A stretch of 44,736 nt of DNA from a bacterium. GTDB taxonomy: Bacteria > Bacillota > Clostridia > Lachnospirales > Lachnospiraceae. The translations under genes and the position numbers were made by a program. Numbering within the stretch: position 1 is the first letter of the stretch; the number at the start of each line of letters is the position of its first letter. The DNA lies in contig JAMPGX010000002.1 in NCBI GenBank assembly GCA_023663725.1, positions 262,224-306,959 on the forward strand. Reading direction: 5' to 3'. This document shows positions 12,107 to 24,122 of the stretch, in pieces. Below the pieces are notes generated by a model. It was not told the origin of the DNA, did no database searches, and was given only the letters and a program-made list of their open reading frames with translations.

Positions 12107-12195
12107 ATTATAGTGCGGAAAAATGGGAAAAATAGTAGTGAATCAAATTTTGCAGATATTATCGGTGTCACGATAGGCACTTGCAAAACCCTTTA

Positions 12196-12224
12196 TTGCC
12201 AGTACCGAATTGTGTATATTGTAT
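12196..12224 (+). promoter_or_regulatory. possible promoter of the recombinase gene
   Basis: TTGCCA (12196-12201), 17-base spacer, TTGTAT (12219-12224). Both hexamers are only partial matches to the sigma-A consensus; the surrounding DNA is AT-rich. If used, the transcript would have a leader of nearly 200 bases containing the long hairpin. Confidence 0.3.
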
Positions 12225-12253
12225 ATTCCATAAGCAATGCCCTTTCGAACCGT

Positions 12254-12302
12254 CGGTACTTAGCGAGGTCTGCCGAATTCATTCGGCACGAGCTTAGTAC
12301 CG
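12254..12302 (+). promoter_or_regulatory. long imperfect stem-loop in the recombinase leader
   Basis: CGGTACT (12254-12260) pairs with AGTACCG (12296-12302), AGC with GCT just inside, and TGCCGAAT (12271-12278) with ATTCGGCA (12281-12288) at the tip. A further AGTACCG lies upstream at 12201-12207, and ACCG (12299-12302) can instead pair with CGGT (12306-12309), so alternative folds exist. No U-tract follows. A regulatory leader role is an inference. Confidence 0.45.
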
Positions 12303-12427
12303 CTACGGTGAGAACGGAGCGAGAGCGTGCTTGCGTTGGAATGTACAATGTGCACAATGACACTCGCATAGTAATTGTTTTTTGCAAACGCATAACTGTC
12401 ACGAAAAAGAAAGGAGAGTAATGGAAC

Positions 12428-13288
12428 ATGGCTTATGAGCGAAAAATCACAGAGGAGGCAAAACAAAAATTCCTGGAAAGTCTGTGGGAGGATGAGAAGA
12501 GTAAGGCGACGATCGACAAATACAGGAGGGACCTGGGGAAGCTGGAGGACTATCTGCAGGGCGCAGAGCTGGACAAGGAACGGCTCATTGCCTATAAGCA
12601 ATATCTGCTGGACAGCGGATTGTACAAGACCGCCAGCATCAACAGCTTTCTGACGGTGGCCAATCATTTTTGTCAGGTTATGGGATGGTGTGACCTGCGG
12701 GTAAAGACCCTGAAGCAGCAGAGGGAAATCTTTCGTCCGGAGGAACAGCATTTGAGCCGGCAAGACTATAAAATACTGGTTCAGACTGCGGAGCGGAGCG
12801 GGAATCACAGACTGTCCCTGATCATTCAAACTATCGGTGGAACCGGAATCCGCATCAGCGAATTGCAGTATATCAATGTGGCGGCGGTAAAGAGCGGCAG
12901 GGCCTATATACGGTGTAAGGGGAAGAGCAGAAGTATCCTGTTGCCCCACAGCTTGCTACAGCTGCTCAGAGTATATGTACGGAAGAACAGGATCACAGAG
13001 GGTCCTATATTTTGCAGTAAAAATGGGAATCCGCTGGATCGGAGCAATATCTGGCAGGAGATGAAACTTCTGTGCGCCAAGACACAGATCGATGCGCGCA
13101 AGGTATTTCCCCATAATTTCCGGCATCTGTTTGCGGTATGCTTTTATCAGCTGGAGAAGGATATTGTGAAGTTGGCGGATATTCTGGGACACAGCAGTGT
13201 AGACACCACCCGCATATATATGAGAACACCGGCGAGAGAACATCAAAGGCTTCTGAATCAGATGCGGATGATTGTATGTACCACATAA
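12428..13288 (+). CDS. tyrosine recombinase (phage-integrase family), probable invertase of the adjacent switch
   Basis: A 286-residue site-specific recombinase. Residues 5-95 are the SAM-like N-terminal core-binding domain (KFLESLWEDEKSKATIDKYRR); the catalytic domain holds Arg142 (GGTGIRISELQ), His229 and Arg232 (HNFRHLFA), His255 (LGHSSVDTTR) and the nucleophile Tyr264 (RIYMR), so the active site is intact. The start is ATG 12428, 9 bases after AAGGAGAG. The final codons ACC ACA TAA lie inside the left inverted repeat of the neighbouring invertible segment, so inversion leaves the protein unchanged. Position and intact active site suggest it inverts that segment, as Mpi/Ssr2-like recombinases do at Bacteroides polysaccharide promoters. 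Confidence 0.9.
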   Translation: MAYERKITEEAKQKFLESLWEDEKSKATIDKYRRDLGKLEDYLQGAELDKERLIAYKQYLLDSGLYKTASINSFLTVANHFCQVMGWCDLRVKTLKQQREIFRPEEQHLSRQDYKILVQTAERSGNHRLSLIIQTIGGTGIRISELQYINVAAVKSGRAYIRCKGKSRSILLPHSLLQLLRVYVRKNRITEGPIFCSKNGNPLDRSNIWQEMKLLCAKTQIDARKVFPHNFRHLFAVCFYQLEKDIVKLADILGHSSVDTTRIYMRTPAREHQRLLNQMRMIVCTT

Positions 13289-13303
13289 TATGAATTATGT
13301 GGT
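13280..13303 (+). repeat. left inverted repeat of the invertible segment
   Basis: Ten-base arms ACCACATAAT and ATTATGTGGT flank the centre ATGA. The arms are palindromic to each other, as expected for binding of two recombinase protomers; only the 4-base centre gives the site a direction. The repeat begins within the last codons of the recombinase gene and includes its stop codon. Confidence 0.9.
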
Positions 13304-13326
13304 AAACATCTTACATAACACTCATT

Positions 13327-13355
13327 AAAATATCACATTTTATAGTTTCTTGCAA
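13327..13355 (-). promoter_or_regulatory. leftward promoter-like sequence inside the invertible segment
   Basis: On the minus strand TTGCAA (13350-13355), 17-base spacer, TATTTT (13327-13332). In the present orientation it would fire antisense into the recombinase gene; after inversion it would face the antiterminator gene with its -10 mapping to about 13480-13485. Confidence 0.35.
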
Positions 13356-13441
13356 GAGTTTTTTGCCGATCTGCTTACCCCGTCGACGAATATGGGAGCG
13401 CAAGTGTCTTCGGACATGGAAAAACGACATGGCGCGACGAT

Positions 13442-13472
13442 TCGACACATCACTTTATTCCCTCAATATAAT
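13442..13472 (+). promoter_or_regulatory. promoter in the invertible segment facing the antiterminator gene
   Basis: TCGACA (13442-13447, 5/6 to the -35 consensus) and a perfect TATAAT (13467-13472) separated by 19 bases, in AT-rich DNA. Predicted transcription starts near 13479, about 30 bases before the right inverted repeat. In this orientation the antiterminator and polysaccharide operon should be ON. Confidence 0.65.
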
Positions 13473-13508
13473 AAATACATCCGCGAACTGCTCTGCACTC
13501 TGTCAGAT

Positions 13509-13532
13509 ACCACATAATTCATATTATGTGGT
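13509..13532 (+). repeat. right inverted repeat of the invertible segment
   Basis: ACCACATAAT, centre TCAT, ATTATGTGGT: the exact reverse complement of the left repeat. In RNA it would fold into a 10-bp hairpin with a UCAU loop ending 2 bases before the GGGAGG ribosome binding site (13535-13540) of the antiterminator gene. Confidence 0.9.
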
Positions 13533-13546
13533 GCGGGAGGAAGGCA

Positions 13547-14110
13547 ATGTGGTATGTTTTGCAGGTAAAAACGGGAAGTGAAGCCCATATGAAGGATATT
13601 TTGGAGCGATTCCTTCCTGATGGGCTGGTTTCCGATGTCTTTTATCCGCTATATGAGGACAGCTATAAGCAGGGCGGAGTGCGAAGCGTTGTGACAAGGC
13701 TTCTTTTCCCAGGATATCTGTTTCTGGATACGCAGCGAATCGACGAGGTGGAAAAGTATCTGGAGAGGATAACGGAGCAGCACAGTCTGTTGCCATCCTC
13801 AGGGAAGTTATCCTCAGGGAGTGCATCCCTAGGGAATGGCTTCCCTGGCAAGGTCTGCACTGCCGTCAGCAGCAAGGAGCAGGAATTCCTGACATCGCAC
13901 ACGGATCACCGGCATGTGATGACCATGAGTCTTGGGTATATGACCGGCCGAGAGGTGGTGATAACCGAGGGGGCCTTTGCCGGCTATTGCGGGGAACTGG
14001 AATACGTAGATCGCCATAACCGGTACGGGGTGATGAGAGTCAGGCTGGGAGAGCGGGATGTGAATATCCGTTTTGGTCTGGAGATTGTCCGAAAAGAGCG
14101 CGCAATGTGA
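13547..14110 (+). CDS. loaP: NusG-paralogue transcription antiterminator (LoaP/UpxY type)
   Basis: A specialised NusG paralogue expected to ride on RNA polymerase and suppress termination in the long polysaccharide operon it heads. The NGN domain starts at residue 1 (MWYVLQVKTGSEAHMKDILE) and includes DVFYPLYEDSYKQGG and LLFPGYLFLDT; a KOW domain is at the C-terminus (REVVITEGAFAGYCGELEYV to IRFGLEIVRK). The linker carries a 15-bp repeat array. Start ATG 13547 is 6 bases after GGGAGG; the frame is open upstream, but that part lies across the inverted repeat. Firmicutes homologues are called LoaP and Bacteroides ones UpxY; the gene name is by family and position. Expression should depend on the inverton. 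Confidence 0.85.
   Translation: MWYVLQVKTGSEAHMKDILERFLPDGLVSDVFYPLYEDSYKQGGVRSVVTRLLFPGYLFLDTQRIDEVEKYLERITEQHSLLPSSGKLSSGSASLGNGFPGKVCTAVSSKEQEFLTSHTDHRHVMTMSLGYMTGREVVITEGAFAGYCGELEYVDRHNRYGVMRVRLGERDVNIRFGLEIVRKERAM
13795..13839 (+). repeat. 15-bp in-frame tandem repeat, three units
   Basis: Units ATCCTCAGGGAAGTT, ATCCTCAGGGAGTGC and ATCCCTAGGGAATGG lie head to tail, with a more diverged fourth unit after them. They encode SSGKL-SSGSA-SLGNG between the NGN and KOW domains of the antiterminator. Confidence 0.7.
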
Positions 14111-14156: not shown

Positions 14157-14972
14157 ATGTCTGATATACCAAGCGACAGGAAGCCTCAAGTGCAGATAAT
14201 AGTCGCCACCCATAAGCAATACCGGATGCCGGAGGACGAAATGTATCTCCCGCTCCAGGTGGGAGCAGAGGGGAAAGCGGACTTGGGCTATGCCAGGGAT
14301 AACATCGGAGAAAATATTTCCGAACTCAATTATTCGTTCTGTGAGCTGACAGGGCTCTACTGGGCGTGGAAGAATCTTGACGCCGATTATATCGGTCTGG
14401 CGCACTACCGCAGGCATTTTGGAGTCAGGAGGAGGGAGCCGTTCTCTGGGATTCTGACCTATTGTCAGCTATTGCCGATGCTGGGGAGGTATTCCGTGTT
14501 TGTCCCCCGCAGAAGACGTTACTACATTGAGAATCTCTATACCCACTATCAGCACACACATTATGGGGAGCATCTCGATAGAGCCAGAGAGATCCTTGCT
14601 TCAAGACATCCCGATTATCTGGAAAGCTTTGACAGGGTGCTCCGGCATACCTACGGCTTCATGTTCAATATGACGATCATGAAAAAGGAGCTTCTGGACG
14701 CGTACTGCCAATGGCTCTTTGATATTCTGTTTGAACTGGACAGACTGGTTGACAGCACCGGTTATTCCGCCTATCAGAAGCGGTTTCATGGGCGGGTCAG
14801 CGAGATTCTTTTGAATGTGTGGCTGGATCATCAGGTACAGTGCGGAAGCTTGAAGGACAGGGAGATCAGAGAGCTCCCCTGTCAAAATATGGAGAAGGTC
14901 AACTGGCTGATCAAGGGAAACGCGTTTTTGCGGGCGAAGCTCTTTGGCGTGAAATATGAGGGGAGTTTCTAG
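14157..14972 (+). CDS. DUF4422 capsular polysaccharide glycosyltransferase-like protein
   Basis: A 271-residue cytoplasmic protein of the DUF4422 family found in capsule and exopolysaccharide loci. Diagnostic parts: IIVATHKQYRMPEDEMYLPL with QVGAEGK, the GENISELNYSFCELTGLYWAWKN motif, DYIGLAHYRRHFG, and later FMFNMTIMKKELLDAYC and a RVSEILLNVWLDHQ helix. It probably transfers a sugar during repeat-unit assembly; donor and acceptor are unknown. It is the first polysaccharide gene after the antiterminator, 46 bases downstream, with GGGAGTGAG upstream of the ATG. Confidence 0.8.
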   Translation: MSDIPSDRKPQVQIIVATHKQYRMPEDEMYLPLQVGAEGKADLGYARDNIGENISELNYSFCELTGLYWAWKNLDADYIGLAHYRRHFGVRRREPFSGILTYCQLLPMLGRYSVFVPRRRRYYIENLYTHYQHTHYGEHLDRAREILASRHPDYLESFDRVLRHTYGFMFNMTIMKKELLDAYCQWLFDILFELDRLVDSTGYSAYQKRFHGRVSEILLNVWLDHQVQCGSLKDREIRELPCQNMEKVNWLIKGNAFLRAKLFGVKYEGSF

Positions 14973-14983
14973 GGAGACTGGAC

Positions 14984-16189
14984 ATGAGAATTGGTAAAAA
15001 TCAATTGATCGCGTTATCCTTATTTGTGTTTATTATCTCTGCCCCGTTCGGAAACAAGATCGCAGGTAGATTTGCGGTGTCGAACGTTGGGCAAATTATC
15101 AGCTTTCTGGTGATTCTCCCTGTGATTGCAACGAGAATCAATAAGGACTATGTCAGGAGGAATCTGATCCTTATAGCGCTGATGTTTGTCGCTGCCGCGA
15201 TATCCTCCATCAAATATGGTATTTCCATGCATATTGGGCATCTGTGCTATTTTACACTGATTACGCTGTATATCAGTTTTCTGTTCAAAGAAGTGAGAGG
15301 CAGTCAGATCATTATCCAAACCGTTAAAAAGTGCTATTTGCTGAGTATTTACTGTTTCTTTCTGCCTTTCCTAGTCATGTGTTATCAGCGTGTCATACTA
15401 AAGGGTGGAGGATATGACTCTTATATGTTCGACGATAAGTCTCATACAGCAATATTCTTTTCCTTTTACGCCTTTTTGTCGCTGATTCTCATAAAGGGAA
15501 GAATGAAATATTTTATGTCCGTACTATATTTTTTACTCGCACTGACGACAACCTCCCGATTAAGCGTAATTTTTATCCCTTTTTATATATTTGCGCTGTA
15601 TGTTGCCAGCGCGTCGGATTCAAAAAGAATTGCGAAAAAAATACTTTCTATTGTGCTGGTCGTCGTATTTGTAGTGCTGGGCATATACTTTATCTTCCAA
15701 AATGGAAAGTATTTTTCTGTTTTGGGAAGAATAGGCACGTCGGGAGGCTCAACCAGATCGCACTTGGTTTTGATCGTCTACTCACTGAAAATAAAGTGCG
15801 CAGATATTGTCAACTTTCTCATGGGAACGGGGCCGGGAAGCTTTTCCAATATACTGGTAGCATCAGGGATGGATCTGTCTGCGATTAGGGTGGACAAGGG
15901 CTCGTACAGAGCGATTCTGAGGGGTGTTTTGCCGGTGCATTCCACGCACGCGGAAATATTTATGGATTTTTCAATTTACACATTTGTTCTTTATGTGAGG
16001 AATCTATGGGCAATATGGAAAGGATTATATCAGGGAAAACAGATCGTACTCATGCTCTTTTACATACCGTTTCTGGGGGCGGAAATATTCTATACGACCT
16101 TTCATGAAAATGCTTTTTTTGTAATTTTGCTTTTTTGTTATCTTTTGGCAAATGCAGATAAAGTGGAGAACAAACAGCAAAAACGGTAA
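14984..16189 (+). CDS. O-antigen ligase/polymerase-like membrane protein (Wzy-like)
   Basis: A 401-residue protein made almost entirely of hydrophobic helices (about ten), with a large polar loop at roughly residues 265-320 that includes RSHLVLIVYSLK, GTGPGSFSNI and LPVHSTHAEIFMDFSIYTF. This layout, and the HSTHAE motif in the loop, fit repeat-unit polymerases (Wzy) and O-antigen ligases. Sequence conservation in this class is low, so the call rests on topology and operon context. Base composition is more AT-rich than the housekeeping genes. Confidence 0.7.
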   Translation: MRIGKNQLIALSLFVFIISAPFGNKIAGRFAVSNVGQIISFLVILPVIATRINKDYVRRNLILIALMFVAAAISSIKYGISMHIGHLCYFTLITLYISFLFKEVRGSQIIIQTVKKCYLLSIYCFFLPFLVMCYQRVILKGGGYDSYMFDDKSHTAIFFSFYAFLSLILIKGRMKYFMSVLYFLLALTTTSRLSVIFIPFYIFALYVASASDSKRIAKKILSIVLVVVFVVLGIYFIFQNGKYFSVLGRIGTSGGSTRSHLVLIVYSLKIKCADIVNFLMGTGPGSFSNILVASGMDLSAIRVDKGSYRAILRGVLPVHSTHAEIFMDFSIYTFVLYVRNLWAIWKGLYQGKQIVLMLFYIPFLGAEIFYTTFHENAFFVILLFCYLLANADKVENKQQKR

Positions 16190-16203: not shown

Positions 16204-17229
16204 ATGGCGCAAAATCTACGGCAAGGGGGAAAATATGGAGCAAAAATTTCTGTGATTGTCCCCGTATATAATGTGGAGAGGGAATTGCCTCGCTGCATGG
16301 AGAGTTTACTCAAGCAGACTTATGAAAATCTGGAAATCGTTCTGGTAGACGACGGCTCGACGGACAACAGCGGGATTCTGTGTGACAGCTATTGCAGCAG
16401 AGATCGGCGCTGCGCCGTGTATCATACGGAAAATAGTGGTGTGTCAGCCGCAAGAAATCTGGGGATGGAGAAAGCAAATGGAGAATATTTCGCCTTTGTC
16501 GATGCGGATGACTACGTTGACAGCGACTATATCGAGTATTTATATCGACTGATTGAAACCAGCGGACTTCGTATGTCTATCTGTCAGCATCGGGTGCAAT
16601 TTGAAAATGGAAATATACGGGAATACGGTAGGGAGGGAAAAGAAATATTAAGCGGTAAGGTCTGTGTTGAGCGAATGCTTTATCATGACATTATCGACAC
16701 CTCCGCATGGGGTAAACTATATGCGCGCCATTTGTTTGAGACCGTACAATATCCGACAGGTATGTTATATGAGGATATAGGAACCACTTACAAATTGCTG
16801 ATGCAATGTGACCGGATTGCAGTGGGGTATCAATCCAAGTATACCTATATTCGCAGAAGAAATTCTATCGTAAACAGTTCCTTTCATCTCAAAAAATTGG
16901 ATTTGTTGGAGATGACTGACAGGATGGGAGTGGATGTGGTGAAGCGCTATCCCGATCTGGAAGCAGCAGTATTGAGAAGGAGGGTCTATGCGAGAATATC
17001 TACATTAAATCAGATGATAGGGGTGAAGGGCGTGGAGAAAAAGAGGAGAGAGCTTCTGGCCTTTCTAAAGAGAGAGGGAAGCTCTGTATTGCGCAATGCC
17101 AGCGCGCCTAAGCGTGACAAGAGCGCGTTGCTCTTAATCAAGCTCAGTTATCCCTTGTACTGTGCAGTCTGGTTGTGCTACCAGTGGTATTTGTGGAAAG
17201 GAAGTAGGAACGAATATGGCTGTCAATAA
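16204..17229 (+). CDS. family 2 glycosyltransferase
   Basis: Nucleotide-sugar-dependent inverting transferase (GT-A fold), cytoplasmic face of the membrane. KISVIVPVYNVERELPRCMESLL is the classic N-terminal nucleotide-binding start, followed by LEIVLVDDGSTDNSG, NSGVSAARNLGMEKANGEY and the metal-binding FVDADDYVDSDYIEYLY. The C-terminal third is basic and amphipathic, possibly membrane-associated. AAGGAG lies 10 bases before ATG 16204. It overlaps the flippase gene by 14 bases. Confidence 0.9.
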   Translation: MAQNLRQGGKYGAKISVIVPVYNVERELPRCMESLLKQTYENLEIVLVDDGSTDNSGILCDSYCSRDRRCAVYHTENSGVSAARNLGMEKANGEYFAFVDADDYVDSDYIEYLYRLIETSGLRMSICQHRVQFENGNIREYGREGKEILSGKVCVERMLYHDIIDTSAWGKLYARHLFETVQYPTGMLYEDIGTTYKLLMQCDRIAVGYQSKYTYIRRRNSIVNSSFHLKKLDLLEMTDRMGVDVVKRYPDLEAAVLRRRVYARISTLNQMIGVKGVEKKRRELLAFLKREGSSVLRNASAPKRDKSALLLIKLSYPLYCAVWLCYQWYLWKGSRNEYGCQ

Positions 17230-18505
17230 TCGCTGGAGAGCTGCCGGAGCTGGCTCCTTATTCCGTTATGGCACAAAGGAAAGACAATTGGCCAGGAATA
17301 CAGGTAGTTTACTACTCTTTCATATTGCCAAAATTGTTTTTCCTCTCGCTGTTTTACCCTATCTGACCAGAACCTTGTCTACGCAGGTCTATGGCACGGT
17401 GGCATATGTGCGAACAGTGATGATCTATATGCAACTCATTGTCGATTTTGGTTTTGCGCTGTCTGCCACAAAGGATATTGTGAAGACACAGGATGACAGG
17501 GAAAAGATGTCGGCTGTGATTGGCGATACCTTGCTGGCCAAGATTATTTTGGGTATAGCAGGCGGAATGGTGTTGGGGGTATTGTCCGGCTGCCTGCCCA
17601 TATTAAAAGGCAATCTGTTGTATACATTTTTGTCTTACTTTGTCGTAGTAGAGTCTGTTTTCCTGATGGATTTTGTGTTTCGCGGGTTGGAAATCATGCA
17701 TGTGATAACCGTCCGTTTTGTGGCTATGAAGGTATTTTCTACGGGATTGACCTTCGTCTTTGTAAGAGATGACACAGATATATTGTGGATTCCTCTGTTG
17801 GACATTGTCAGCTCCATACTTGCCATAGCGCTGGTGTTTTATGAACTGAAAAAGCAAAAAATAGGGATTAAGTGCTCAGGAATATCGAAGGCTTTTTCCA
17901 TGATAAAGGAATCCTTTGTGTATTTCCTGTCAAATGTTGCATCCACTTCCTTTAACGCGCTGAGCACGCTGATGATAGGAGCTTATATCAGCGCGACAGA
18001 GGTAGCTTATTGGAGTGTGTGTATGCAGATCATCGGCTCAATTCAGGCGTGTTATTCCCCTATATCCGATGGGATATACCCTGAGATGGTGCGGTCTGCA
18101 AATATAAATATTCTTAAGAAAATATTGAGGCTATGCATTCCCATCGTTTGCCTTGGCTGTATAGCCGCTTACCTTTTTGCTGGGAAAGGGATGTACCTGT
18201 TGGGGGGAGAGAAATATCTTGTGGCAGTCCCCATTTTTCGGATTCTGATTCCGTGTCTCTTTTTTGGATTTCTCTCCATGATGATCGGATGGCCTGTGCT
18301 GGGGGCAATCGGCAAGACGAAGGAAACGACAATCACCACTGTGGCCTCAGTGTGTTCTCATATCCTTATGCTCGTTGTGCTGATTGTTTTGGATCAGTTT
18401 ACATTAGTGAATATCGCGATTGTGAGATGCCTTACCGATATCTTGATGTTTGTTATGCGGTTTCTGTTTTACCAAAAATATAAGTCATTGTTTAACCGGA
18501 TATGA
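17216..18505 (+). CDS. polysaccharide flippase (Wzx-like, MOP superfamily)
   Basis: A 429-residue multi-helix membrane protein predicted to flip lipid-linked repeat units across the membrane for Wzy. The N-terminal LARNTGSLLLFHIAKIVFPLAVLPYLTRTLSTQVYG is typical of Wzx/RfbX proteins, and about 12 hydrophobic segments follow. I use ATG 17216, just inside the 3' end of the preceding glycosyltransferase gene; the frame is open 18 codons earlier but that stretch is the shadow of the upstream gene. GGAAGTAGGAA upstream may serve as RBS. Confidence 0.85.
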   Translation: MAVNNRWRAAGAGSLFRYGTKERQLARNTGSLLLFHIAKIVFPLAVLPYLTRTLSTQVYGTVAYVRTVMIYMQLIVDFGFALSATKDIVKTQDDREKMSAVIGDTLLAKIILGIAGGMVLGVLSGCLPILKGNLLYTFLSYFVVVESVFLMDFVFRGLEIMHVITVRFVAMKVFSTGLTFVFVRDDTDILWIPLLDIVSSILAIALVFYELKKQKIGIKCSGISKAFSMIKESFVYFLSNVASTSFNALSTLMIGAYISATEVAYWSVCMQIIGSIQACYSPISDGIYPEMVRSANINILKKILRLCIPIVCLGCIAAYLFAGKGMYLLGGEKYLVAVPIFRILIPCLFFGFLSMMIGWPVLGAIGKTKETTITTVASVCSHILMLVVLIVLDQFTLVNIAIVRCLTDILMFVMRFLFYQKYKSLFNRI

Positions 18506-18526
18506 CAGGAGAGAAAGGAGTTGTCT

Positions 18527-19630
18527 ATGAGGGCGGCAGTTATCACGCTTCATACGGTGTGTAACTATGGCACACAGCTGCAGGCATATGCCACGCAGGA
18601 GAAGCTGAGAGAGTATTTTGAGGAAGTGGAGTTTATTCCCTTCAAGCGAAGCGATACCTATGGGAAAGGATTACTTGAGACCTTTACGCGGGGGAATCCG
18701 CTAAAGGCACTACCGATTATTCCCACAATGCTGCGCTGGAAGACGGTCTTTGGCCGGTTTCAGAAGCAGCATTTAAGACTTGGCGATACGGAGTATCTGC
18801 GGGAGGAAGATTTTCGCACATTTCAGGATATATATGATGCCTATTTTGTCGGCAGCGATCAGGTGTGGAACTGTGGCTGGAACAGGGGGGTGATACCGCC
18901 GTACTATCTGAGTTTTGCACCGGATAACAAGCCTAAGTATGCCTTTTCCTCCAGCTTTGGGCAAAAACAGGTGGATGCCTGCTATGTCGAACAGTCGAAG
19001 GCACTGATGCAAAGGTTCGACTATATAACGGTCAGAGAACAGAGCGGCGTACAGATTCTGGACAGACAGTACGGTTACACCAGGGCCAAGAGGATTCTGG
19101 ACCCAACCCTGCTCATGGATGGGGATTTCTGGCGACGTCTGGCGCCGAAGAACAGAATCCGCGGCAAATATATTCTGATCTACAATTTGCAGAGAAACAG
19201 AACGCTTGACGCGTATGCTGAGAGAGTATCCAGGGAGACGGGATATTCCCTGTATCGGTTCTGCACACGGTACGATCAGATCGTCAGAAATGGAAAGAGT
19301 CTCTTGATCCCCGATGTATTGTCCTTTATCACGCTGATTGACAACGCCGCCCTGGTGATAACGGATTCTTTTCACGCCACCGCTTTTTGCATGAATCTGC
19401 ATACGGAGCCTCTGTGCATCTACCCCACAGAATATGAGGGGAGAATCGCGGAGTTTCTCGAGCTTGTGGGGGAGGAAGAAAGGCATGTGCGGGATTATGA
19501 GGATATGGGTGTTCTGAATAGGCAAATTGATTTTGAAAAAGTTGACCTCATATTGAAAAGAGAACGAGAAAAAGCAGATGAAGTTTTGAAAACAGAGCTG
19601 GGATTGAAAAAAAGGAGAGAATATGAATAA
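18527..19630 (+). CDS. polysaccharide pyruvyl transferase family protein
   Basis: A 367-residue protein of the CsaB/WcaK family, which adds pyruvate ketals to sugars or, in some members, performs other sugar transfers. Signatures: AVITLHTVCNYGTQLQAYATQ at the N-terminus, DAYFVGSDQVWNCGWN, KYAFSSSFGQ, ITVREQSGVQIL, RILDPTLLMD and the C-terminal ALVITDSFHATAFCMNL. AAGGAG at 18515-18520 is spaced for ATG 18527, not for the in-frame TTG at 18521. It overlaps the next gene by 8 bases. Confidence 0.85.
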   Translation: MRAAVITLHTVCNYGTQLQAYATQEKLREYFEEVEFIPFKRSDTYGKGLLETFTRGNPLKALPIIPTMLRWKTVFGRFQKQHLRLGDTEYLREEDFRTFQDIYDAYFVGSDQVWNCGWNRGVIPPYYLSFAPDNKPKYAFSSSFGQKQVDACYVEQSKALMQRFDYITVREQSGVQILDRQYGYTRAKRILDPTLLMDGDFWRRLAPKNRIRGKYILIYNLQRNRTLDAYAERVSRETGYSLYRFCTRYDQIVRNGKSLLIPDVLSFITLIDNAALVITDSFHATAFCMNLHTEPLCIYPTEYEGRIAEFLELVGEEERHVRDYEDMGVLNRQIDFEKVDLILKREREKADEVLKTELGLKKRREYE

Positions 19631-21761
19631 AAAAGATGTTAAAGAACCGATGATTTCTATTGTTGTGCCTATATATAACGGCGAAAAATACATAAAAGAT
19701 TGCGTTAAAGCGTTGACAGAGCAAACATATTGTAATTTGGAAATTATTCTTGTTAATGACGGTTCAAATGATGGAACGCAAAATATAATTGAGGAATTAG
19801 CTGCCAAGGATAGCCGGATTATCTCGCTTCGACAGACAAATATGGGGGTTGCAGCGGCTAGAAACTATGGAATTAAATCCTCTGGTGGAGATTATATTTC
19901 TTTTGTTGACGCAGATGATTATGTATCTAAAGACTATATTGAATATCTCTATAACCTTATTAAAAAAGCTAATTCAGATATTGCGTTGGTCCCTCAGGCA
20001 AAATCATTTTGTGGTTTTATTTCAACATTGGATACAAATATTAGATGTGATAAGGCAGAACAAATATGGACAGGCGTAGAGGCGGCTCGTCAATTGTTGC
20101 TTTATAACGTTAAAATGTCATGCTGGTGTAAATTGTTTCGCAGAAAGTTTTTAGATGACACACATATTCTATTTAATGAGGCTTTGTTTTGCGGAGAAGG
20201 ATTTAATTTCAATCTGGAATGTTTTTTAAAGGCAGAAAAAGTTGCGGTAGGATTTAAAACAATTTATTTCTATAGAGTTGATAATTTTGAAAGTGCAATG
20301 ACAAAATTTGATATTGAACTAATAAAAAACGGCTTAAATGCAATTCAATGTATTGGAGAAAAAGCAATTAAAAGATATCCTGCACTGAAGAACGCTGTAT
20401 ATTATACAAAATGGCATACTTGCTGTGACTTTTATAACATATTAATTGGATGCAATGAAGGGAAAAATTATAATAGGCAATATCAATATTTAAAGCGAGG
20501 ATGTCAAATATATTCCAAATATGCTTTTCAAAAGAATATTTCCATTAAAAATCAATGCAAGGGAGTATTATATGGAATATCTCCATATCTGGCCGCCAGG
20601 ATAATGAATAAATTCCGATTGAGAAAATATTCGAGGAATGAAAATACGACTGAAAGGTATCGAAAAAGATTCGGGGGGGGGGAGGATATTTTACTGATAT
20701 TGTCAAGCCGAGGTTCTGAACCTGCCTATACGCCATATGATGTGTCAAAGTGGGGGCTAAACGGACTGACAAGAATATCTGTCATTGTCCCTGTTTACAA
20801 TGGAGAAAGATATATTGCGGAATGTATAGAGTCCATTCAAAAACAGGACTATAAGAATTTGGAAATAATCGCGGTAGATGATGGCTCATATGACAGTTCA
20901 CTCCAAATTCTGCAGCAGTATGCATCGAAGGATAACCGTATAAAAGTAATTGCAAAAGAGAATGGTGGGGTGTCATCAGCGAGAAATGCAGGGCTGGACA
21001 TTATGAGCGGTGACTATTTATGTCTGATAGATCAGGATGATTGTATCGCGCCGGATTATGTCAGTTATCTTTTGAGATTGATGATCCAGAATGACACGCA
21101 GATTGCTACCGTTCCACAGGCAAAACGCTTTGTGGGGAAATGGGGAATATCGGTAGAGGATACGGAGGATTATACGGAAGTTCTCAGCGGCAGGGAGGCG
21201 GCCAGGCAGATGCTGTACTATAATTTTATCATTGCGCCCTGGAATAAGATGATAAGTACGGAACTGCTCCGCAATAATAGGCTGCGCTTTGTAGAGGAAA
21301 TATGGGGTGGAGAAGGCTTCCTGTTTTCCGTCGAGTGTTTTCAGAGGGCGGAAAAGGTGGCAGTGGGACACAAAAAGATATATTATTACAGATGTGATAA
21401 CAGGGATTCCGGAATGACAAGATTTAATGAATGGATCTTGTATAGCTCACTCAGGGCGCAACAGCTTATTATGAACCGTATTGCAGATGGGGACAGAGGG
21501 TTGACGGAGGCGTGTGAGTATGCGAATTGGCATACAAATTGCGATATGCTGTCCTACCTGGTGGGGTGTAATGCCGTTAGCTCTCATTATGATACATACA
21601 GGACAATCAGGAAGACTTGCAGGAGAAAAGCCAGATATGCCTTTCGCGCGCCCATTTCCGTAAAGGAAAAATTAAAAGCGGTAACCTATATGCTTTCTCC
21701 CAATCTCGCTGTGGCGATGATCAATAAATGCCGTTTGAGAAAATATTCGCGTATCGACTAA
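19623..21761 (+). CDS. double-domain family 2 glycosyltransferase joined across a poly-G tract
   Basis: A 712-residue reading frame with two complete GT2 modules. Module 1 (about 10-340): ISIVVPIYNGEKYIKDCVKA, VNDGSNDGTQ, FVDADDYVSKDYIEYLY. Module 2 (about 380-712): ISVIVPVYNGERYIAECIES, VDDGSYDSSL, LIDQDDCIAPDYVSYLL. Both end in a similar NK.RLRKYSR tail, so they are paralogues, yet module 1 is markedly AT-rich and module 2 is not. The linker is odd: ten consecutive Gs (20673-20682) are followed by a peptide resembling a short-chain dehydrogenase (SSRGSEPAYTPYDVSKWG). Losing one or two Gs ends translation within about 15 codons. It may be one protein, two genes fused by slippage, or a rearranged junction. 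Confidence 0.75.
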   Translation: MNKKDVKEPMISIVVPIYNGEKYIKDCVKALTEQTYCNLEIILVNDGSNDGTQNIIEELAAKDSRIISLRQTNMGVAAARNYGIKSSGGDYISFVDADDYVSKDYIEYLYNLIKKANSDIALVPQAKSFCGFISTLDTNIRCDKAEQIWTGVEAARQLLLYNVKMSCWCKLFRRKFLDDTHILFNEALFCGEGFNFNLECFLKAEKVAVGFKTIYFYRVDNFESAMTKFDIELIKNGLNAIQCIGEKAIKRYPALKNAVYYTKWHTCCDFYNILIGCNEGKNYNRQYQYLKRGCQIYSKYAFQKNISIKNQCKGVLYGISPYLAARIMNKFRLRKYSRNENTTERYRKRFGGGEDILLILSSRGSEPAYTPYDVSKWGLNGLTRISVIVPVYNGERYIAECIESIQKQDYKNLEIIAVDDGSYDSSLQILQQYASKDNRIKVIAKENGGVSSARNAGLDIMSGDYLCLIDQDDCIAPDYVSYLLRLMIQNDTQIATVPQAKRFVGKWGISVEDTEDYTEVLSGREAARQMLYYNFIIAPWNKMISTELLRNNRLRFVEEIWGGEGFLFSVECFQRAEKVAVGHKKIYYYRCDNRDSGMTRFNEWILYSSLRAQQLIMNRIADGDRGLTEACEYANWHTNCDMLSYLVGCNAVSSHYDTYRTIRKTCRRKARYAFRAPISVKEKLKAVTYMLSPNLAVAMINKCRLRKYSRID
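20673..20682 (+). repeat. homopolymer of ten G residues in a coding region
   Basis: The run lies in the linker of the double-GT2 gene. With nine Gs the frame reads GGGRIFY then TGA; with eight it reads GGGYFTDIVKPRF then TGA. Only the present length (modulo 3) joins the modules. GGGAGG at its end also resembles a Shine-Dalgarno sequence. Confidence 0.9.
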
Positions 21762-21828: not shown

Positions 21829-21856
21829 TTGACAAATATTCACTGTCGTGGATAAT
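21829..21856 (+). promoter_or_regulatory. promoter of Rpn copy A
   Basis: Perfect TTGACA (21829-21834), 16-base spacer, GATAAT (21851-21856). The same hexamers and spacing precede copy B, so the element was duplicated with the gene. Confidence 0.7.
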
Positions 21857-21864
21857 AGAAGGTA

Positions 21865-21925
21865 CAAAAGCAGAGAAAATAGCAGGACTCATTTCAAACG
21901 TGAGTCTCTATTCTCTCTGCTTTTG
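21865..21925 (+). terminator. terminator-like hairpin in the leader of Rpn copy A
   Basis: CAAAAGCAGAGA (21865-21876) pairs with TCTCTGCTTTTG (21914-21925); inside, AATAG pairs with CTATT and GACTCA with TGAGTC. It begins within about 10 bases of the -10 box and is followed by TATTTG. It may attenuate transcription of the gene or end a small RNA of roughly 70 bases. Confidence 0.6.
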
Positions 21926-21970
21926 TATTTGCTGGGAAATCATAGTCTAAAGAAGAGGAGGAACCAATCT

Positions 21971-22957
21971 ATGACACAAGGGAACGGAAGCCGCACGGCG
22001 GTTTCCAACCGAGAGACGAAAAACAGTGCCTTTATCACCTACTTCAGCGAGCCGGAGAACGCCTCGCAGCTCTATGCCGCGCTGGGGGATGGGGAGGTGT
22101 CCCCTGAGGATATCACCTATGTCACGCTGGAGGGCGTACTGTTTATCGCCAGAAAGAACGATCTGGCCTTCACAGTGAAGAACCGCATACTGGTGATCAG
22201 CGAGCACCAGTCTACGATCAACGAGAACATGCCCCTGCGGGACCTGCTCTATCTGGGACGCACCCTCGAAAAGCTCCTGGATGAAAGGTCTATCTACAAG
22301 CGCACTCTGCTGAAAATCCCCACCCCGCAGTTCTTTGTCTTCTACAACGGGAACGACCCGTACCCTGCGGAGAAAATCCTGCGACTTTCCGACGCATATC
22401 TTGAAAAGACAGAGCAACCTATGTTAGAATTGACAGTGAAAGTGATCAATATCAATTTTTCATCAGAACCCAAATTTCTGCAGGAGTGCCGGCCGATGTA
22501 TGAGTATTCCTGGTTCATCCAGAGAATCAAGGACTATCAGACGCAGGGGTGGTGCAGGGACGCGGCGGTCACCCAGGCGGTGAAGGACTGTCTGGAGGAG
22601 GGAATTCTGGTGGAATTTATGAAGAAGCATGGCTCGGAGGTGGTGAATATGCTGTACACACAGTGGAACTGGGATGATGCGATGGCGGTTGAGCGAGAGG
22701 AGGCATACGCGGAGGGACTGACCCAGGGTATCAGTCAGGGCATTGCCCAAGGCGAAAGCCTTGGTGAAAGAAAGGGCGATCTCATGCGCTATCATCAGAA
22801 TATTCTTGATCTACTGGAGGAGTTGGGCGAGGTCCCTGAGGATATCCGCGCTTGCATCCAGGCGCAGGAGAATCCCGATATCCTCCGCATCTGGCACAAG
22901 GCGGCGGCCCATGCACAGAGCTTGGCGGATTTCCGAAAAACGCTTCAGCAGGTTTAG
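21971..22957 (+). CDS. Rpn/PD-(D/E)XK nuclease family protein, copy A
   Basis: A 328-residue member of the Rpn (YhgA-like) recombination-promoting nuclease family, often annotated as 'PD-(D/E)XK nuclease family transposase'. The nuclease core has Asp64 (ARKNDLAF) and the E-x-Q form of the catalytic motif at Glu78-Gln80 (ISEHQSTINENMPLR), followed by a LLYLGRTLEKL helix. The C-terminal half includes the family's Q/G repeats (QGISQGIAQGESLG). GAGGAGG precedes ATG 21971. An internal ATG at 22649 has a GGAGGTG 5 bases upstream and would give a 102-residue C-terminal product. Family members promote recombination; some act in phage defence. Confidence 0.85.
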   Translation: MTQGNGSRTAVSNRETKNSAFITYFSEPENASQLYAALGDGEVSPEDITYVTLEGVLFIARKNDLAFTVKNRILVISEHQSTINENMPLRDLLYLGRTLEKLLDERSIYKRTLLKIPTPQFFVFYNGNDPYPAEKILRLSDAYLEKTEQPMLELTVKVININFSSEPKFLQECRPMYEYSWFIQRIKDYQTQGWCRDAAVTQAVKDCLEEGILVEFMKKHGSEVVNMLYTQWNWDDAMAVEREEAYAEGLTQGISQGIAQGESLGERKGDLMRYHQNILDLLEELGEVPEDIRACIQAQENPDILRIWHKAAAHAQSLADFRKTLQQV

Positions 22958-23064: not shown

Positions 23065-23114
23065 GTATGTATTGGATGGAAAAATAAAGGATGGAAAAGA
23101 GGAGGAACCAATCT

Positions 23115-24122
23115 ATGACACAAGAGAACGGAAGCCGCACGGCGGTTTCCAACCGAGAGACGAAAAACAGCGCTTTTATCACCTATTTCAGCGAGCCGGA
23201 GAATGCCTCGCAGCTCTATGCCGCGCTGGGGGACGGGGAGGTGTCCCCAGAGGATATCACCTATGTCACGCTGGAGGGCGTATTGTTTATCGCCAGAAAG
23301 AATGATCTGGCCTTTACGGTAAAAAACCGCATACTGGTGATCAGCGAGCACCAGTCCACCATCAACGAGAACATGCCCCTGCGGGACCTGCTCTATCTGG
23401 GACGCACCCTCGAAAAGCTCCTGGATGAAAGGTCTATCTACAAGCGCACTCTGCTGAAAATCCCCACCCCGCAGTTCTTTGTCTTCTACAACGGGAACGA
23501 CCCGTACCCTGCGGAGAAAATCCTGCGACTTTCCGACGCATATCTTGAAAAAACGGGGCAACCTATGTTAGAATTGACAGTGAAAGTAATCAACATCAAT
23601 CTTTCATCAGGGCACAAATTCCTGCAGGAGTGCCGTCCGATGTATGAGTATTCCTGGTTCATCCAGAGAATCAAGGACTATCAGGCGGAGGGGTGGTCGA
23701 GGGACGCGGCGGTCACCCAGGCGGTGCAGGACTGTCTGGAGGAGGGAGTCCTGGTGGAATTCATGAAGAAGCATGGTTCGGAGGTGGTGAATATGCTGTA
23801 CACACAGTGGAACTGGGACGATGCGATGGCGGTGGAGCGAGAGGAGGCATATGCGGAGGGACTGACGCAGGGTATTAGTCAGGGCATTAGCCAGGGAATA
23901 AGTCAGGGCATTGCCCAAGGTGAAAGTCTTGGTAGGAGAAAAGGCGATCTCATGCGCTATCATCAGAATATTCTTGATCTACTGGAGGAGTTGGGCCAAG
24001 TTCCTGAGGATATCATCGCCTGCATCCAGGCGCAGGAGAATCCAGATATCCTCCACATCTGGCACAAGGCGGCAGCCCACGCACAGAGCCTGGCGGAGTT
24101 CCGAAAAAAGCTTCAGGAGTGA
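23115..24122 (+). CDS. Rpn/PD-(D/E)XK nuclease family protein, copy B
   Basis: A 335-residue near-twin of copy A with the same catalytic residues (Asp64, Glu78, Gln80). It has two extra QGIS units in the C-terminal repeat (GISQGISQGISQGIAQ) and a different last few residues. The start is ATG 23115, matching copy A; an in-frame ATG at 23091 precedes the AGGAGG and is unlikely. The internal RBS/ATG is conserved (GGAGGTG at 23780-23786, ATG 23793) and would yield 109 residues. Confidence 0.85.
   Translation: MTQENGSRTAVSNRETKNSAFITYFSEPENASQLYAALGDGEVSPEDITYVTLEGVLFIARKNDLAFTVKNRILVISEHQSTINENMPLRDLLYLGRTLEKLLDERSIYKRTLLKIPTPQFFVFYNGNDPYPAEKILRLSDAYLEKTGQPMLELTVKVININLSSGHKFLQECRPMYEYSWFIQRIKDYQAEGWSRDAAVTQAVQDCLEEGVLVEFMKKHGSEVVNMLYTQWNWDDAMAVEREEAYAEGLTQGISQGISQGISQGIAQGESLGRRKGDLMRYHQNILDLLEELGQVPEDIIACIQAQENPDILHIWHKAAAHAQSLAEFRKKLQE

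Follow-up and report, generated by a model that had tools for sequence, protein, structure and literature searches.

A putative phase switch with an adjoining tyrosine recombinase precedes a proposed surface-glycan operon led by a LoaP-like gene in a Lachnospiraceae genome

The locus described here, part of a stretch of 44,736 nucleotides from a Lachnospiraceae genome (hereafter the window), is probably a self-contained phase switch, in which a recombinase flips a segment carrying one promoter, the segment having been assembled in its OFF orientation and a LoaP-led operon being turned ON after the flip. Under this proposal, the recombinase would work on two palindromic sites, identical and inverted relative to each other, and reverse the 203 bp between them. 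The segment would hold one main promoter which, as assembled, would point to the recombinase and leave the operon OFF; after a flip it would point right, and transcripts would begin some 40 nt short of the right site's outer end and pass through a LoaP-like gene into the glycan genes. Judging from its family, the LoaP-like protein would then aid RNA polymerase along the operon, and the polymer would be made by only part of the population. A sequence-only reading of this DNA had already suggested that a recombinase operates an invertible promoter ahead of a glycan operon led by an antiterminator; that core is strengthened by the conservation of the cassette in a family of relatives and by inversions among them, whereas the promoter that it named and the ON state that it implied are not retained.

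The tyrosine recombinase gene (12428..13288, plus strand, 286 aa) is intact, as had been claimed: its frame contains no internal stop, its product matches Pfam Phage_integrase (6.3e-23), and residues 13-276 align with XerD (1a0p), including the TGIRISE, PHNFRH, and LGHSSVDTTRIY stretches, which we take to hold the catalytic residues. None of its 10 NCBIfam matches reaches the cut-off of its own model. The stop codon falls within the left recombination site (13280..13304, plus strand), which reads ACCACATAAT-ATGA-ATTATGTGGT plus one base and whose reverse complement forms the right site (13508..13532, minus strand). The exact inverted repeats reported earlier as 24 bp long and 205 bp apart are thus real, with a full length of 25 nt, 100% complementarity, and a gap of 203 nt that corresponds to the segment proposed to invert (13305..13507, no strand, 203 bp). 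Each repeat is itself a palindrome, whose 10-bp arms flank an asymmetric 4-nt core, ATGA in the left site and TCAT in the right one. Half-sites around an asymmetric core fit a tyrosine recombinase, and inversion is the outcome expected from cores in reversed orientation. Allowing up to 3 mismatches, the site matches two places only within the window and none in 100 shuffles. The ribosome-binding site that the earlier reading had placed just past the right repeat is present as well, a GGAGG beginning a few bases beyond it ahead of the ATG at 13547.

The same genome (3.63 Mb, 49 contigs) encodes a second recombinase, 61% identical to that of the window, on contig C46. Its site pair, ACAACATAAT-TTGC-ATTATGTTGT, has 27-nt arms separated by 151 nt, and the recombinase stop codon likewise lies within the left arm. 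This sister cassette precedes a larger polysaccharide operon than that of the window, ordered CpsB, Wzz, AAA kinase, sortase, LytR-CpsA-Psr, sugar transferase, and then LoaP. The C46 LoaP is 51% identical to the window protein, scores 129.4 bits with NF033641, over the cut-off of 125, and has a Pfam KOW hit; lying ~7.5 kb from the switch, it indicates that LoaP need not be the first gene of such an operon.

Beyond this genome, the recombinase belongs to a widespread cassette family. With the window protein as query, 26 of 101 genus genomes match at E 1e-30, 8 of 138 at 1e-75, and, on the scale of the taxonomic family, 41 of 397 genomes at 1e-75, its own genome counted. We assembled a set of loci from 100 fetched stretches, the window, C46, and L014, and looked for inverted pairs scoring at least 14 in the 900 nt after the recombinase stop, using the 93 loci with more than 400 nt after it (94 before the duplicate L201 was dropped). 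A single scan of genome contigs yielded one locus. Such a pair is found in 82 of the 93 loci, within 200 nt of the stop in 79, and in 5 of 625 random 960-nt stretches of the same loci (a narrower control that restricts the position of the first arm gave 1/368, a figure not like for like with the former). The loci without a pair are L096, L099, L101, L102, L108, L145, L150, L165, L180, L185, and L187. The gap between arms ranges from 127 to 469 nt, with a median of 245 (80 loci), and the left arm takes in the recombinase stop codon at 22 loci, a count that leaves out L156, where that arm finishes before the stop. The usual site is ACnACATAAT-N4-ATTATGTnGT, a minority having AAAAT or other half-sites. 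The core is asymmetric in 50 of the 51 loci whose site fits a 4-nt core, a figure that covers these 51 only since the palindrome finder chose spacings of 3, 6, 7, or 8 in 31 of 82 loci, with some centers plainly wrong. The compact layout that had been singled out as a module worth describing is the usual form of this recombinase family.

What lies behind these switches is diverse. In 70 of the 79 loci, the first downstream open reading frame, chosen mechanically, runs on the same strand, although this choice is wrong for C46, where an antisense frame was taken instead of CpsB. A Pfam search of 59 first genes (58 from the 70 plus CpsB of C46, the other 12 being omitted mostly for length) returned varied families, among them integrase-type domains, signal peptidase, lysozyme, amidase, BTAD, CpsB, SpaA, and kinases. 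In six loci (L084, L085, L088, L091, L094, and L095), a second tyrosine recombinase gene directly follows the switch, whose segment is thereby flanked by a recombinase on each side.

Comparisons between genomes indicate that cassettes of this family flip. In two genomes, the loci L075 and L200 are collinear at 98.7% over the 2,861 nt before the switch and at 99.4% over the 5,083 nt after it, while their 258-bp segments match at 99.6% on opposite strands, with one mismatch; by its promoter, L075 would be ON and L200 OFF. Two further pairs, L080/L199 and L092/L095, have segments reversed at 88% and 83%, with flanks at 81-89%. The comparison for flipped assemblies that had been put forward as a check finds reversed segments in three pairs of relatives. 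The window locus itself has no second copy among the 138 genus genomes at E 1e-75, and its own segment would probably invert too.

Which way the promoter faces was assessed by scanning 84 segments, that is 82 of this recombinase family together with L226 and L229, two segments of another site type in which the promoter faces downstream, with a generic matrix whose weights approximate Bacillus sigma-A preferences. The best leftward hit falls 40-75 nt from the arm end in 59 of the 84 segments, where 11.9 are expected, and the best rightward hit does so in 21. With a pooled 95% cut, 44 of the 82 family segments have a promoter facing the recombinase, 7 one facing downstream, 3 both, and 28 neither; the window (10.4) and C46 (8.9) score below the cut of 10.8 and are counted among these 28. 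Judged against its own shuffles, the leftward site of the window, TTGCAA-N17-TGATATTTT, reaches P 0.018 in the generic scan, and that of C46 P 0.159. A family matrix built from 46 non-redundant relatives, the window and C46 excluded, scores them at 9.5 (P 0.016) and 15.0 (P 0.002), respectively, values to be read with a partial circularity in mind since its training sites were chosen with the generic matrix. The two segments moreover share a 46-nt block of 76% identity that spans the proposed switch promoter, a TTGCAA-N17-TATTTT with TG before the -10 (13327..13355, minus strand). A simple promoter scan of the switch had given two rightward sites, from 13303 and 13500, and zero leftward ones. 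Because the family-matching promoter faces the recombinase, the assembled state of the window is most likely OFF, contrary to the ON state implied earlier, and C46 also appears, most likely, to have been assembled OFF. Among the 58 segments with a well-placed promoter, terminators lie opposite the promoter in 14 and along it in 7, against 0.2 in shuffles. Neither the window segment nor that of C46 has one, so that, with the switch OFF, transcription of the recombinase could run on into the operon.

The choice of promoter decides between this reading and the one first advanced, in which TCGACA-N19-TATAAT (13442..13472, plus strand) drives the operon as assembled, so that the window would show the ON state and a flip would turn it off. 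The two hexamers exist, at 13442-13447 and 13467-13472 with a 19-nt spacer, agree with the consensus at 11 of 12 bases, and are 60 nt away from the arm end, inside the 40-75 nt range; a 5-bp UUCG hairpin at 13404-13417 also occurs on the rightward strand as assembled and not after the flip, which mildly speaks for that orientation and which we otherwise attribute to chance. However, the site does not rise above shuffled sequence (generic P 0.112), and its spacer is foreign to the family, N17 being found in 53 of the 59 well-placed leftward hits and N19 in none. The family matrix gives it 0.5 even if shortened to N17, the best rightward score in the window being -2.5 (P 0.752), and the C46 cassette has nothing alike, its rightward strand offering no site above shuffle (P 0.537, generic). 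We therefore rejected it as the switch promoter and judge it a chance match, which makes an operon assembled ON unlikely.

Were both candidates active, they would form back-to-back promoters, each orientation offering another one, and a flip would alter the strength or timing of expression rather than switch it on or off. Both do lie at a fitting distance from their arms (60 nt for the rightward, 47 nt for the leftward), and 3 of the 84 segments exceed the cut on both strands; but the rightward candidate is not above shuffles and 51 of the 82 family segments exceed the cut in one direction only (44 leftward, 7 rightward), so that we regard such a two-promoter arrangement as very unlikely. Finally, the switch could have decayed and lost its flipping. 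Decay of this kind seems to happen, to judge from L145 (805-2470, minus strand). Its recombinase, at 54% nearer to that of the window than any other found beyond this genome, precedes a single palindromic site and then LoaP, and its genome yielded no second match to that site; L145 may be what is left of such a switch, locked in place. For the window, though, a recombinase frame that is open and aligned with XerD through the conserved stretches, together with sites that show zero mismatches in 25 nt, makes decay the most improbable of the explanations considered.

The gene past the right site (13547..14110, plus strand) encodes a NusG paralogue of 187 aa (Pfam NusG 1.9e-07), which we name LoaP-like since its NF033641 score of 105.4 bits is under the LoaP cut-off of 125; with the UpxY model NF033644 it obtains 41.5 bits, the cut-off of 100 not being reached. 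Pfam finds no KOW domain in it, although its C-terminal part, which follows an insert, aligns with the corresponding part of the KOW-bearing C46 LoaP. Six open reading frames follow on the same strand, up to 21761: a DUF4422 protein, glycosyltransferase-like by context (14157..14972); a hydrophobic protein that might be a polymerase (14984..16189); a family 2 glycosyltransferase (16204..17229); a flippase-type Polysacc_synt protein, the real start of which is probably within the listed frame (17162..18505); a polysaccharide pyruvyl transferase (18521..19630); and a protein with two family 2 glycosyltransferase domains (19623..21761), the last gene of the proposed operon. Of the six surface-glycan genes described earlier, Pfam assigns glycan-type families to five, DUF4422 included, and returns no hit for 14984-16189. 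Unlike in the sister operon, Pfam detects neither an initiating sugar transferase nor a chain-length protein in that of the window. A promoter-like site at 21829, beyond the last gene, suggests that the operon ends there. Just downstream, two nearly identical open reading frames lie in tandem (21848-22957 and 23091-24122), the first without a Pfam or NCBIfam hit.

In Bacillus velezensis, LoaP is a NusG paralogue that promotes the transcription of long operons and needs a UNCG leader hairpin, no switch being described for it in the available part of that source (PMC12691694). The flipped, ON leader of the window differs in having no UNCG hairpin. The search for one extended from the window and its flipped segment to C46 and to the 600-700 nt flanking each of 30 LoaP genes; besides the hairpin of the window as assembled, it returned one in C46 and hits at 3 of the 30 LoaP loci. 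No consistent element emerges, and this feature may not define LoaP here. In the ON leader, the right site would form a 10-bp hairpin immediately ahead of the ribosome-binding site (-12.7 kcal/mol, z -3.6). The earlier suggestion that one flip sets both initiation and processivity accordingly splits in two: the invertible promoter would account for the former, and the LoaP-like protein may, by analogy with its family, gate the latter.

The pairing of LoaP with a switch recurs, yet it is uncommon. A profile built from 30 LoaP loci and the genome's own two LoaPs finds LoaP in 3 of the 103 recombinase loci (the window, C46, and L145). From the other side, a LoaP above the NF033641 cut-off occurs in 46 of the 397 genomes of the taxonomic family, and 20 such loci were read with 12 kb upstream. 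Among them, L241 and L252, from one genus, have a recombinase of this family and a site pair ~7 kb ahead of LoaP, and the promoter points to the recombinase. A triple LoaP array at L250 (11526-13546, the same place as L226) follows a site pair of a different type, the promoter pointing to LoaP, and a double array at L229, a stretch with short flanks, lies behind inverted repeats of that same type (AGATTA...TAATCT); the stretches around these two arrays contain no recombinase of the present family.

Bacteroides capsule loci combine invertible promoters with UpxY antiterminators. They thus resemble the window in placing an invertible promoter before a polysaccharide operon led by a NusG paralogue (PMC11892184), and differ from it in phylum, in promoter type, and in the antiterminator, the window protein scoring 41.5 bits for UpxY and 105.4 for LoaP. 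The same work profiled recombinase-linked invertons in Clostridia and, in its accessible part, names antiterminator genes only for Bacteroidota groups. Its inverton group 139 and invertase group 35 likewise place a tyrosine-type recombinase near short invertible segments in Clostridia, the group 139 inverton of Clostridium sp. D5 having 26-nt arms and a 205-nt gap by the printed coordinates and shifting orientation over passages; host class, enzyme type, and geometry are what suggests their identity with the family described here (PMC11892184). In Clostridioides difficile, a tyrosine recombinase also acts on short invertible segments before surface genes, although RecV serves more than one switch (Cdi1 and Cdi4), whereas the recombinase of the window adjoins its own (PMC5903667, as far as its accessible part goes). 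In Eggerthella lenta, DNA inversion is likewise tied to capsule expression and LoaP; according to the portion available of a preprint (PMC13174815), however, these inversions span megabases, use 16-bp repeats with no recombinase next to the breakpoints, and move capsule clusters relative to loaP, in contrast to the small invertible promoter of the window. The type of switch is thus already known in Clostridia, and the LoaP-led operon behind it is the unusual part. Among the papers listed by searches of an open-licence library, judged mostly by titles and abstract openings, we recognized none on LoaP behind a small invertible promoter.

From a broader perspective, the locus ties a widespread, little-described family of flip cassettes to surface polysaccharides via an antiterminator. 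It also yields a rule, based on the site and on the position and facing of the promoter, for proposing, with no more than an assembly, which of many such switches are ON and which are OFF. The scan suggests that most copies were assembled OFF; if that holds, laboratory culture may miss the polymers under their control. A more ambitious scheme, which we advance tentatively and hold to be possible rather than probable, is that one flip sets both transcription start and processivity through the LoaP-like first gene, that in the OFF state the promoter, running antisense into the recombinase gene, would tune the rate of its own flipping. If so, the locus would be a Clostridia counterpart of the Bacteroides UpxY loci, and single cells, having two such cassettes that differ in their sites, could combine two polymers independently of each other.

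Apart from the switch itself, both recombinases are preceded by a repeat of ~200 nt that is predicted to fold strongly (z -6.1; 12193-12395 in the window; 17982-18208, minus strand, in L013). We rejected it as a structured leader of the switch module since it is dispersed, this genome having at least 58 matches, with 40 of 112 candidates scored. Matches also occur in 24 of 61 genomes of the genus, often paired in inverted orientation at a distance of a few hundred bp, and the repeat reaches no Rfam family at the gathering score. Of its 53 predicted base pairs, 18 are changed on both sides across 20 of the 31 copies extracted, and it may represent a structured element of REP- or MITE-like type that has so far gone undescribed.
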